From: Spartobacteria bacterium
GTDB taxonomy: Bacteria; Verrucomicrobiota; Verrucomicrobiia; Chthoniobacterales; UBA10450
Length of the DNA: 64,000 bases
Reading direction: 5' to 3'
NCBI GenBank assembly: GCA_003167555.1
Contig: PMSN01000025.1
Coordinates: forward strand, 248,001-312,000
Of the stretch, positions 4,876 through 9,954 are shown piece by piece; positions within the stretch are counted from its first letter, which is position 1; each line of letters starts with the position of its first letter. Made by a program: the position numbers and the translations under genes. The notes beneath the pieces are model-generated. The model did no database searches. It worked only from the letters and a program-made list of their open reading frames with translations, and had not been told where the DNA came from.

Positions 4876-5976
4876 ATGACCCCCACCGAAGCGTGCATCG
4901 CGCTCAACATGCTTCCGACGATGGGGCCGGTGCGCTTGCGCAAGCTCCTGGAAGTTCTTGAAACGCCCGAGCGCGTCCTGGCGGCGAAGCGAGATGCCTT
5001 GCGTGCGGTCGAAGGAATCGGCAACGACGTTGCGGATCAGATCGTTAATTGGGAAACCATTGTCGACCTGCCGGCGGAACTCGAACGCATCCGCGAGTTC
5101 GGCGCGAACATCATCACCGCTGAGTCGCCGCTCTATCCGCGCCAGCTCCGCGAAATCCATGCGCCACCGATCGTGCTCTACGTCTGGGGCGAACTCATCG
5201 AGCGCGACCAACACGCCATCGCTGTCATCGGTTCGCGGCGCACGACGCATTACGGAATGGAATCTGCGAAGAAGCTTTCCTATCAACTCGCCTACGCGGG
5301 TCTCACCATCATCAGTGGTCTGGCCCGCGGGATCGATACCGCCGCGCATCAAGGCGCGCTCGCGGCCAAGGGCCGCACGATCGCGGTCATCGGCTCTGGA
5401 TTGTCGAAACTTTATCCGCCCGAGAACGACGCGCTCGCGGAAAAAATTCGCAGCGGCAACGGCGCGATCGTTTCCGAGTTCTCGATGGAGATCGAACCCG
5501 ACCGCCAGACTTTTCCGATGCGCAATCGAATCATCAGCGGCTGGAGCCATGGGCTTTTGGTGGTCGAGGCTGGTCTCAACAGCGGCGCGCTCATTACCGT
5601 CGCGCAAGCGCTCGAGCAAGGCCGCTCGGTTTACGCGGTGCCGGGTCACATCAATGCGCCAAGCGCGCAGGGATCGAATCGTCTGATCCAGCAGGGCGCG
5701 AAACTCGTGATGGACGCGAGCGACCTGCTCGATGACTTGCAGATCCTCCTTCCCGAAACGAAGCCGTCGCCGGAAGCGGCCGTGCGTGCGCTGCCTCTCC
5801 TCACCGATGATGAGCGCCGCGTCTATGATGCGATTGAGGCCACGGAAACACCGATCGACGATATCGCGACGAAGTCCGAATTGCCGAGCGGGACGGTCTC
5901 GTCCATCCTCCTGCGTCTCGAACTGAAGCGATTAGTGAAGCAACTGCCTGGAAAATATTTCGTGAAGTTGGCGTAG
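4876..5976 (+). CDS. dprA: DNA-processing protein DprA (Smf)
   Basis: Loads RecA on incoming single strands during natural transformation. The N-terminal SAM/HhH-like region (about 1-70) is followed by the Rossmann-type DprA core with VIGSRRTTHYGMESAKKLSY, ISGLARGIDTAAHQGALA, IGSGLSKLYPPEN and PMRNRIISGWSHGLLVVEA. A C-terminal winged-helix domain (about 305-366) ends in LKRLVKQLPGKYFVKLA. The length of 366 is normal. The stop is immediately followed, with no spacer, by the ATG of an alcohol dehydrogenase. The last 106 bases of the gene recur, diverged, at 7008-7113. Confidence 0.94.
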   Translation: MTPTEACIALNMLPTMGPVRLRKLLEVLETPERVLAAKRDALRAVEGIGNDVADQIVNWETIVDLPAELERIREFGANIITAESPLYPRQLREIHAPPIVLYVWGELIERDQHAIAVIGSRRTTHYGMESAKKLSYQLAYAGLTIISGLARGIDTAAHQGALAAKGRTIAVIGSGLSKLYPPENDALAEKIRSGNGAIVSEFSMEIEPDRQTFPMRNRIISGWSHGLLVVEAGLNSGALITVAQALEQGRSVYAVPGHINAPSAQGSNRLIQQGAKLVMDASDLLDDLQILLPETKPSPEAAVRALPLLTDDERRVYDAIEATETPIDDIATKSELPSGTVSSILLRLELKRLVKQLPGKYFVKLA

Positions 5977-7005
5977 ATGAAGGCCGTTCGTTTGCTGAGA
6001 CCCGGCTCGCCTCTCGAAGAGCAGGAGATCGAGATCCCGTCTATCAGCCCGCGCGATGTTTTGATTCGCGTCAAAGCCGCCGGGATTTGCCATTCCGATG
6101 CGCACTACCGCGCGGGCGTTTCGCCAGTACATCCGTTGCCGCTCACGCTCGGGCATGAAGTTGCCGGCGTTGTCGAGAGAACGGGCGCGGACGTGCGGAG
6201 TTTCACAGCGGGTGAGCGGGTCTGCGTGCATTACCTCGTTACTTGCGGCCGGTGCAATTATTGCCGGACCGGCACTGAACAATTTTGCCCGACGGCCCAG
6301 ATGATCGGAAAACATCGCGACGGCGGCTTCGCGGAATGTATCACGGTGCCGGAGCACAGCGTCTTTCATTTGCCGGACGAAATTCCATTCGAACAAGGCG
6401 CGATCCTGATGTGTTCCTCGGCCACGTCGCTGCATGCGTTGAACAAAGCCCGGCTGCGCGCTGGCGAAACAGTGGCGGTCTTTGGCGTCGGCGGCCTGGG
6501 CATTTCGGCGGTGCAATTGGCCAGGCACTTCGGCGCCGCTGAAGTGTTCGCGGTCGATATCAATCCCACAAAGCTCGCGCTCGCGGAGCGGTTCGGCGCG
6601 ATTTCGGTGAACGCCGCGGTCAGCAATCCCGTCGAGCAGCTTCGAGAACTCGCGCGCGGACGCGGCGTGGATGTCGCGCTAGAATTAATCGGTTTGCCGC
6701 TCACGATGCGACAGGCGGTGCAGTCGCTGGCGATTCTCGGCCGGGCCGCGCTCGTTGGCCTCACGCAGGAAAGTTTCGAAGTCGCGTCCTACACCGAGCT
6801 CGTGAACAAGGAAGCCGAGATCATTGGAGTCTCCGATCATCTGGCGAGTGAAATTCCCGTGCTCATCGACCTGGCACGGACGGGAAAACTTGATCTGTCG
6901 CACGGCATCACCCGCACCGTTCCGCTCGAGGCCGGCGCCGTGAACGGCGTTCTGGATCGCCTCGAAGAATTCGGCGATGACGTTCGCGTCGTCATCACGC
7001 CGTAG
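5977..7005 (+). CDS. Zinc-dependent alcohol dehydrogenase family protein
   Basis: Medium-chain dehydrogenase/reductase of 342 residues. The catalytic-zinc region is AAGICHSDAHYRAG with LTLGHEVAGVVERTG; the structural zinc lobe CGRCNYCRTGTEQFC has four cysteines; the NAD(P)-binding turn is VFGVGGLGISAVQLARHFGA. The substrate is unknown. The ATG abuts the dprA stop codon, and a diverged copy of the dprA 3' end follows the gene. The dehydrogenase therefore looks like cargo inserted at the dprA terminus rather than an original neighbour. It is probably transcribed from the dprA operon. Confidence 0.88.
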   Translation: MKAVRLLRPGSPLEEQEIEIPSISPRDVLIRVKAAGICHSDAHYRAGVSPVHPLPLTLGHEVAGVVERTGADVRSFTAGERVCVHYLVTCGRCNYCRTGTEQFCPTAQMIGKHRDGGFAECITVPEHSVFHLPDEIPFEQGAILMCSSATSLHALNKARLRAGETVAVFGVGGLGISAVQLARHFGAAEVFAVDINPTKLALAERFGAISVNAAVSNPVEQLRELARGRGVDVALELIGLPLTMRQAVQSLAILGRAALVGLTQESFEVASYTELVNKEAEIIGVSDHLASEIPVLIDLARTGKLDLSHGITRTVPLEAGAVNGVLDRLEEFGDDVRVVITP

Positions 7006-7007
7006 AA

Positions 7008-7113
7008 GAAATCCGATTTGCCAAGCGCCGCGGTCTCTTCTACCCTCCTCCGCCTTGAGCTAAAGCGGCTCGTGAAACAGCCGCCCGGAAAATAATTCGC
7101 GACACTGGTGGAG
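7008..7113 (+). pseudogene. Second, diverged copy of the dprA 3' end
   Basis: These 106 bases align without gaps to 5871-5976, the end of dprA, with roughly three quarters of positions identical. In the dprA frame the copy reads KSDLPSAAVSSTLLRLEL, then KRLVKQPPGK, then a stop at 7093-7095, against KSELPSGTVSSILLRLEL and KRLVKQLPGK in the intact gene. Most differences are synonymous, so the copy descended from a functional dprA (a xenologue or old paralogue) rather than from random decay. There is no start codon and no upstream dprA sequence. Confidence 0.85.
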
Positions 7114-7173
7114 ACGCCTCCGTGACGTTCCGCTGGTTTTTTCAAGGCGATACGCTTTCCCTCACTGCAGAAA

Positions 7174-9954
7174 ATGTCCAAATCGCTCATCATCGCCGAG
7201 AAGCCCAGCGTCGCCGCCGACCTCGCCCGCGCGCTCGGCAAGGTCCCGAAAAAAGGGGACCACTTCGAGAACGACCAATACGTCATCTCTTCCGCGGTCG
7301 GGCACGTCGTGGAACTGCTGATGCCGGAAGACATCGATAAGAAAAAGTACGGCTTCTGGCGGCTCGAGACGCTGCCGATCATTCCGGAGAAATTCGAGCT
7401 CAAGCCGAGCGAAAGTTCCAAAGGCAAATTCGCGCAGTTGAAAAAGCTGATCGCGCGCAAAGACATCACAGAAGTCGTGAACGCCTGCGACGCCGGCCGC
7501 GAAGGTGAACTGATTTTTACCTACCTCACGCAGCTCGCAAAAAACAAGCACCCGGTGAAACGCCTCTGGCTGCAATCGATGACGCCGCAAGCCATTCGCG
7601 ATGGTTTCAGTAGACTGCGCGACGGCGCGGAAATGCAGGGACTGGCCGACGCCGCCCGTTCGCGGAGCGAGAGCGACTGGCTCATCGGCATCAACGGCAC
7701 GCGCGCGATCACTAAACGCATGTTCGGTTCGCGCGCCGGCAACGTCGCCTCGGTCGGTCGCGTCCAGACGCCCACGCTGGCGATCGTTTACGCGCGCGAA
7801 CTGGAGATTCGGAATTTTAAACCGCGCGGTTACTGGCGGGTGACGGCGAAATTCGGTCTCGCGAAAGGCGAATACGAAGGCGTTTACCAGCGAGAGAATT
7901 TCAAGAAGAACGACGACGAGCACGATCGGATCGATCGCATGTGGGATCAGGTGGCGGCGGAAGCGGTCGTCGCGGCGTGCCAGGGGCATCCGCTCGCGAG
8001 CGTTTCCGAAGAGAGAAAAGCCAGCTCGCAAATCGCACCGCGCCTTTACGATCTGACCACGCTGCAACGCGAGGCCAATGGCCGCTACGGATTCTCAGCC
8101 AAGCGCACTCTGCAAATCGCGCAGGCCCTTTACGAGCGGCACAAAATGCTGACTTATCCGCGCACGGATTCGCGCGCCCTGCCGGAAGATTATCTCCCGG
8201 TCGTGAAACAAACGCTCGGCAACCTTTCCGGTTCGCTCCAAACGCACGCTGAGAAAGTGCTCGCGCAAAACTGGGTCCGGCCTAACAAGCGCATCTTCAA
8301 CAACGCGCAGATCAGCGATCACTTCGCCATCATCCCGACCGCGTCGGAAGCGAAGCACCTCGATGAGGCGGAAACGAAAATTTACGAAATGGTCGCGCGG
8401 CGTTTCGTCGCCGTGTTTTTTCCCGCGGCCGAATTCGATATCACCACGCGCCTCAGCCAGATCGGCGCGCACAAATTCAAAACCGAAGGCAAAGTGCTCA
8501 CCTCCGCCGGCTGGCTCGAAGTTTACGGCAAGAGCACGGTCGATGACGACTCGGGCAAAGCGTTGCCAGCTCTGAGCGCGGAAGACAAGAACCAGGCGAA
8601 GACACTCGAAGCCACGTTGCACGCGGAGACAACCAAACCGCCGCCGCGTTACACAGAAGCGACGCTGCTTTTCGCTATGGAAACGGCGGGCAAACTAGTC
8701 GAGGACGAAGACGCAGCGGAAGCGATGAAAGAGCGCGGCCTCGGCACGCCGGCGACCCGCGCCAATATCATCGATGAGTTGATCGAGAAGAAGTTCATGG
8801 ATCGTCAGCAACGCGAGTTGGTCCCGACCTCGAAGGCCGAGCAGCTGATCGAGTTTCTCAGTGCGGTAAAGGTCACCGATATCATGAGTCCTGCGATGAC
8901 CGGTGAATGGGAGCATCAGTTGCGCTTGATGGAGCACGGAAAATTTCCGCGGGCGAAATTCATGGCCGAGATCGTCGAGGAGACGAAAGGCATCGTGGAA
9001 CGCGTGAAAGGTTTCGAGGAAGACGATTCCATCGCGCGCGAAACCGACATCGTTTCTCCGACCGACGGCAAGCCGTTGCGCGAAACGTTGCGCGGCTACA
9101 AGTCGCAGGACGGCGAGTTCATGCTCTACAAGGTCATCGGCGGCCGGAAAATGGAGGAGAGCGAAATTCGCGAGCTGGTCGAGAAAGGCGTCGTCGGTCC
9201 GCTCGACGGTTTCATTTCGAACAAGACCAGGGCCAATTTCGCCGCCACGCTCAAACTCGTGAAGGACGAAAAGACCGGGAAATGGAAAGCCGAATACGAT
9301 TTCGGCGACAAAGTGGACATCGGCTCAGTCGAATCATTCTGGACCGATCCCGCGACCGGCGGGGAATTATGCGAAGTCGGCTCGAGCTACGTGTTGCGCG
9401 AACGCGAGAACGGCGAATGGAAGCAGACGCTTCGCCTGCCGCGTCTCATGTGCAAAAAAGAAGTCACACGCGAACAGGCGGTGCGGCTGGTCGAGCAAGG
9501 CAAGACCGACCTGATCAAGGGATTCATTTCCAAGAAAGGCCGTCCCTTCGATGCATTCCTCGTGCGGAACGAGGCGAAGATTCGCTGGGAATTTCCGCCG
9601 CGCGTCGCGAAAACCGGCAAGGACGGCAAACCGGTCGAGCGCAAAGCGCGCGTGAAAGCCGATCTCTCGAAAGCGAAAGTCATCGGCGAAAGCAAGACGC
9701 ATGGCGGCGAGCTGGTCGAGCTGGACGACGCCTACTACGTGCGCAAGCCCGATCAGGATAATCGGCAGGTCTTCAAGCTCTCGAAAAAACTATGCGAGCA
9801 CGAGATTACGCCCGAGGAAGTGAAAGAACTCCTGAGCGAAGGAAGATCGCCGCTCATCGAAGATTTCGTGTCAAAACGCGGCAACAAATTCGGCGCCCAT
9901 CTCGTGCTCTCGCAAAAGAAAGACAAAGCCGAGTTCGAGTTCCCCCCGCGTTGA
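7174..9954 (+). CDS. topB: Type IA DNA topoisomerase (topoisomerase III-like) with three C-terminal repeats
   Basis: Relaxes or decatenates DNA by single-strand passage. The Toprim domain holds LIIAEKPSVAADLARALG (acidic Glu9) and CDAGREGELIF near 105-115. The catalytic tyrosine is Tyr328 in MLTYPRTDSRALPEDY; RGLGTPATRANIIDELIEKK follows. SVGRVQTPTLAIVYARE and the YPRTDSR form match topoisomerase III better than TopA. After residue about 610 there are three tandem repeats of about 90 residues, each ending in a pattern like F-[VI]-S-[KN]-K/R-x-x-x-F-x-A-x-L; two end in EFPPR. No C-terminal Cys4 zinc fingers are visible. At 926 residues it is longer than E. coli TopB. The 3' end is repeated at 10920-10998. 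Confidence 0.9.
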   Translation: MSKSLIIAEKPSVAADLARALGKVPKKGDHFENDQYVISSAVGHVVELLMPEDIDKKKYGFWRLETLPIIPEKFELKPSESSKGKFAQLKKLIARKDITEVVNACDAGREGELIFTYLTQLAKNKHPVKRLWLQSMTPQAIRDGFSRLRDGAEMQGLADAARSRSESDWLIGINGTRAITKRMFGSRAGNVASVGRVQTPTLAIVYARELEIRNFKPRGYWRVTAKFGLAKGEYEGVYQRENFKKNDDEHDRIDRMWDQVAAEAVVAACQGHPLASVSEERKASSQIAPRLYDLTTLQREANGRYGFSAKRTLQIAQALYERHKMLTYPRTDSRALPEDYLPVVKQTLGNLSGSLQTHAEKVLAQNWVRPNKRIFNNAQISDHFAIIPTASEAKHLDEAETKIYEMVARRFVAVFFPAAEFDITTRLSQIGAHKFKTEGKVLTSAGWLEVYGKSTVDDDSGKALPALSAEDKNQAKTLEATLHAETTKPPPRYTEATLLFAMETAGKLVEDEDAAEAMKERGLGTPATRANIIDELIEKKFMDRQQRELVPTSKAEQLIEFLSAVKVTDIMSPAMTGEWEHQLRLMEHGKFPRAKFMAEIVEETKGIVERVKGFEEDDSIARETDIVSPTDGKPLRETLRGYKSQDGEFMLYKVIGGRKMEESEIRELVEKGVVGPLDGFISNKTRANFAATLKLVKDEKTGKWKAEYDFGDKVDIGSVESFWTDPATGGELCEVGSSYVLRERENGEWKQTLRLPRLMCKKEVTREQAVRLVEQGKTDLIKGFISKKGRPFDAFLVRNEAKIRWEFPPRVAKTGKDGKPVERKARVKADLSKAKVIGESKTHGGELVELDDAYYVRKPDQDNRQVFKLSKKLCEHEITPEEVKELLSEGRSPLIEDFVSKRGNKFGAHLVLSQKKDKAEFEFPPR

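Follow-up and report, generated by a model that had tools for sequence, protein, structure and literature searches.

The window, by which we mean the whole 64,000-nucleotide stretch analyzed, comes from a species (G000) of a Chthoniobacterales genus of soil bacteria that is uncultured and known from metagenome-assembled genomes. Its dprA and topA genes are separated by an inserted alcohol dehydrogenase gene and by a second, decayed copy of the dprA 3′ end (Table 1). The dprA product is the sole PF02481 match in the genome, and its C-terminal winged helix spans residues 301–360. As the first-pass annotation had recorded, the dehydrogenase start codon (ATG at 5977) directly abuts the dprA stop codon (TAG, 5974–5976). 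The dehydrogenase stop codon occupies 7003–7005, and the second copy of the dprA end, referred to below as the remnant, begins 2 bases further on.

Table 1. Genes and features of the dprA–topA locus, in coordinates of the window
Feature	Coordinates	Strand	Evidence
dprA (DNA-processing protein A), intact, 366 aa	4876–5976	+	PF02481 258.5 bits; PF17782 DprA_WH 54.8 bits; TIGR00732 above cut-off
Copy 1: intact dprA 3′ end, coding retained, promoter-like element gone	5871–5976	+	Alignment; 8/8 genus members without element
Inserted zinc-dependent medium-chain alcohol dehydrogenase, 342 aa	5977–7005	+	PF08240 112.3 bits; PF00107 86.9 bits
Copy 2 (remnant): displaced non-coding dprA 3′ end, in-frame TAA at 7093–7095	7008–7113	+	Alignment, protein search
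Putative topA promoter kept in remnant: TTGCCA (7018–7023), 17-base spacer, TACCCT (7041–7046)	7018–7046	+	
Old dprA–topA spacer, still joined to remnant	7114–7173	+	Alignment to sister-clade spacers
topA, type IA DNA topoisomerase, 926 aa	7174–9954	+	PF01131 380.9 bits

The two dprA ends align without gaps, as had been claimed, with 78 of 106 bases identical (73.6%) and about 30% identity in the flanks on the same diagonal. Homology runs from about codon 333 of dprA through the stop, with background identity on either side. In a protein search of the whole genome, the remnant was recovered as a second dprA match (residues 300–365, E = 5.4e-8), within which two stops lie in frame, one TAG that belongs to the dehydrogenase and one TAA. 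From codon 333 onward, about 15 differences between the copies are silent and 11 change an amino acid or a stop, so that the earlier description of the changes as mostly synonymous is only roughly right. In the remnant a tyrosine codon has become TAA and the dprA stop is missing; it is thus not a working gene end. That it might still be coding was ruled out by this TAA and by frame breaks in other species. A chance resemblance is excluded by the presence of the same remnant, with the same place and left boundary, in seven other species of the genus. In one of these (G002, locus L035) identity between the intact end and the remnant reaches 86%, more than in the other species, and the two ends have GAGTTGCCAAG and GTCAAACAGTTGCCC in common; gene conversion between them is possible.

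The order dprA, dehydrogenase, decayed dprA end, topA is found in all eight sampled species of the genus, and the remnant starts at the same point in each. In other genera and families of Chthoniobacterales there is no dehydrogenase at the locus and topA mostly follows dprA directly; the spacer between them is short in other genera of the family, usually 40–150 bases. The first 325 codons of dprA recover the genus as a single clade (support 99/98). Since the arrangement is present throughout this clade and absent elsewhere, we place a single insertion ahead of the divergence of its sampled members. The genus-wide distribution rules out a recent transfer. Most of the assemblies are metagenomic. 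The genomes are related, so the counts given here and below are not counts of independent events. The flush junction between dprA and the dehydrogenase is shared by G000 and G001, and the other six species have a gap of 46 bases to about 1.9 kb. One of these gaps (G006, L112, 4409–6067) holds an open reading frame of 552 amino acids seen in that species only. In G003 and G004 (L032, L037), palindromic REP-like pieces (gtagccgcttcgct.tgcgaagcg) lie on both sides of the dehydrogenase. In G005 (L036/L120) a unit of about 212 bases is present three times in tandem 3′ of the dehydrogenase, and each unit consists of dehydrogenase codons 304–342 with the stop plus palindromic filler; here another gene 3′ end is multiplied at the same locus.

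We then asked which of the two ends is the older. The match of the DNA following the remnant to sister-clade dprA–topA spacers beats 300 of 300 shuffles in G000, G001 and G002, and 292 of 300 in G003. Because the remnant still runs directly into the old spacer and on to topA, it is the original end; the upstream intact end is the new copy and may stem from the same genome or from a relative. This bears out the proposal that the dehydrogenase was inserted and that 7008–7113 is a displaced dprA end. For a recent import bringing in a foreign dprA end we found no support: the arrangement is genus-wide, it is the sister clade that the intact ends resemble most (76%), with no remote clade nearer, and trees of the short tail do not separate the ends. 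Two outcomes had been named in advance as counting against the proposed donor segment, namely conservation of the dehydrogenase through the clade, which is what we found, and grouping of both ends together, which the tail tree of 102 columns does not reject (AU p = 0.345 for a single clade of intact ends and remnants).

The retention of the remnant led us to the dprA ends of relatives. In many of them, the last 30 or so codons contain a promoter-like motif, TTGCCA-17-TAnnnT, in a fixed register at codons 336–345. The element was first spotted by eye and then tested on a first set of genomes, so that only the set from other families, described below, is independent. In the first set it occurs in register in the dprA ends of 32 of 70 relatives without the insertion, including all nine members of the sister clade, where synonymous randomization expects it at 0–0.2% per gene. 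We also measured silent-site change, as parsimony changes scaled by the number of sequences, in the sister clade, picked by phylogeny, and in a second set picked by motif. Across codons 335–348 of sister-clade dprA the mean is 0.137 versus a gene mean of 0.337, and of 343 windows the slowest synonymous ones of the whole gene begin at codons 328–336. The same slowing is seen in other clades with the element and in none of the clades without it. Within the family, outgroups that have the element mostly lack a site in the spacer (24 of 27), and 22 of the 32 members without it show a promoter-like TTGCAA-17-TCGATT or TAGTTG there, a count that is descriptive because the pattern was read off the same sequences. 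In Udaeobacter-like relatives (e.g. L056, L063, L085) the dprA–topA spacer contains a strongly conserved block, TTGCAAA...GGGTTCGATTCCTGCCCCATG, that ends at the topA start; this block is likely to serve topA as an alternative promoter whose leader is very short.

With the element known in advance, we scored 74 genomes outside the family. It was present in 34 of the 58 genomes in which topA lies next to dprA versus 1 of the 16 in which it does not (Fisher p = 1.6e-4), using a pattern widened to TTGCC[AC]-17-TAnnnT to admit one genome (G047). The elements start 90–99 bases upstream of the dprA stop. One family (f7) has the element in 13/13 genomes with topA adjacent and in 0/4 without, and two genera of this family, g20 and g225, each show the contrast internally. 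A site of this type lies in the spacer in another nine genomes with adjacent topA, and 13 of the 58 have neither form. The lone carrier among the 16 genomes without adjacent topA (G046, L224) has TTGCCA-17-TAAGCT in its dprA end.

Within the genus, the coding sequence and the element, found together in a single segment in all nine sister-clade members, are parted between the two copies. All eight remnants keep the element, in the form TTGC(C/G)A, 17 bases, TACCCT (TAACCT in G001), and none of the eight intact ends does. Conversely, copy 1 is coding in all eight species, and the frame of copy 2 is broken in the copies compared in detail. In copy 1 of the window the bases at the register of the element read TTGCCG (5881–5886) and CATCCT (5904–5909). 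All eight intact ends have C or G in place of the initial T of the second hexamer, each time through the silent third position of a serine codon, and seven of the eight also carry changes in the first hexamer. Silent-site change in the intact copy shows no slowing (0.337 versus a gene mean of 0.301, rank 250 of 353). Beyond the element, remnants of the two subclades of the genus cannot be aligned with each other: the 32-nt element of the remnant is 80% identical between subclades compared with 55% for third codon positions of dprA, and the sequence that directly follows it matches no better than shuffled DNA. Silent differences between the copies are accounted for by coding constraint on the intact copy and by the promoter-like element in the remnant, and there is no need for the earlier inference that one copy, before it arrived, had evolved inside a working dprA.

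To judge whether the element resembles a promoter, we used calibration sites from the same bacteria. Upstream of open reading frames (464 kb), TTG[AC]..-N-TA...T is in weak excess at spacings of 16–18, and since this excess is only weak, calibration was based on tmRNA and RNase P RNA instead. Upstream regions of tmRNA in the family carry TTGC..-16/18-TA...T in 7 of 11 genomes, where shuffles expect 0.09. RNase P RNA genes often have the −10 form TAnnnT in their upstream regions, with the two-hexamer layout in 2/9. A strict E. coli-style promoter scan found nothing at the locus; TACCCT fits half of the E. coli −10 consensus. TTTGCSA-17-TACNCT has only 2 exact matches in the 4.2 Mb genome, ruling out a genome-wide repeat. 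From the sequence comparisons, we infer that the element is a sigma-70-type promoter of topA.

Taken together, the data make it likely that a segment combining dprA coding sequence with a putative topA promoter was duplicated so that it flanked the inserted gene on either side, each copy keeping one of the two jobs, a case of subfunctionalization. In Chthoniobacterales, the last 30 or so dprA codons would double as the putative topA promoter. The dehydrogenase would have entered between dprA and topA before the sampled members of the genus split, so that a dual-purpose segment stood at either end of it, the first serving as the end of dprA and the second preceding topA. Thereafter the upstream copy would have gone on encoding protein while silent changes erased its promoter, and the downstream copy would have kept the promoter and the old spacer and lost the reading frame. 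Two routes would fit the direct repeat of a gene end flanking the insert, and the insertion may have followed either: a tandem duplication that took in the gene, or a single crossover with a DNA molecule bearing a dprA end. The broader statement, that this is a natural, genus-wide bacterial subfunctionalization of a coding and neighbor-promoter segment, triggered by gene insertion and built on an ancient, order-wide topA promoter inside dprA, we regard as probable.

It is unlikely that the element is a different kind of regulatory DNA site, such as an operator, a terminator or a topA leader element, and not a core promoter. The spacer bases GTCTCTTC beside the second hexamer are also conserved, which would suit such a site. 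Against this, two hexamers with a 17-base spacer reproduce the layout of tmRNA promoters in the same family, and relatives without the element usually have another two-hexamer site in the spacer. A terminator role was ruled out, as the remnant has no terminator-like site; the only one within 5700–7300 is on the opposite strand, inside the dehydrogenase.

We consider it quite improbable that recombination with a donor segment is the whole explanation, a dprA end plus dehydrogenase from a related lineage having replaced the native end and left the remnant as debris with no role. The contiguity of the remnant with the old spacer does make copy 1 a newcomer or a new copy, and the dehydrogenase is nearer to one from a different family of the class (G222, 68%) than to its counterparts within its own family (56–63%). 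Dehydrogenases of the same subfamily are present at other loci in some family members, and the copies checked adjoin neither dprA nor topA. Debris should decay evenly, however, and here a 29-nt element is kept in eight of eight remnants while the rest is unalignable between subclades. Nor do the intact ends approach any distant clade or separate from the remnants in the tail tree, and the dehydrogenase tree resolves no origin or donor lineage. Highly improbable is insertion by a mobile element of the integrase type that carried a copy of the dprA 3′ end as its attachment site and later lost all but the dehydrogenase: integrative elements at gene 3′ ends do leave a restored end on one side and a displaced end on the other, as seen here, but there is no integrase gene between dprA and topA in the regions examined, only the dehydrogenase lies between the ends in the window, other relatives show a short spacer and no occupied site of this kind, and integration by itself leaves the selective retention of the element unexplained.

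Duplication of a coding and promoter segment, followed by complementary loss, can be compared with known arrangements. In Mycobacterium tuberculosis, a promoter inside recA drives recX (PMC3062782); there, as here, the promoter of a downstream gene lies inside the preceding coding sequence, but the recA/recX overlap persists, whereas here the overlapping segment appears to have been duplicated around an insert and its functions separated. In the dprA-smg-topA cluster of Neisseria meningitidis, dprA and topA are co-transcribed and a promoter is predicted within the dprA open reading frame; since a dprA null mutant still contains TopA protein, topA can be transcribed on its own (PMC5817196). The two systems are alike in that dprA and topA are neighbors with a predicted promoter inside dprA. 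They differ in that the N. meningitidis promoter is predicted in mid-dprA, where homology to the present element is not established, and in that no duplication is found there (PMC5817196). As in the duplication-degeneration-complementation model, each copy would have lost one of two ancestral functions so that both are needed; that model concerns whole genes, whereas here the unit is a segment of about 100 bp with coding sequence and a neighbor's promoter. Promoters inside an upstream gene are thus already known; for the division of roles by duplication around an insert, no earlier report was found in the open-access literature.

The genes dprA and topA are neighbors in many phyla, and codons that overlap a neighbor's promoter are thought to lock gene neighborhoods. 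In the bacteria studied here, four states can be compared side by side: the overlap, a promoter in the spacer instead, topA moved away, and the overlap split by duplication. They would constitute a natural experiment on how operons open, on the codon-choice cost of a promoter, and on why dprA and topA stay neighbors. The locus would also show a route by which a gene can be inserted into a tight gene pair with neither neighbor harmed.
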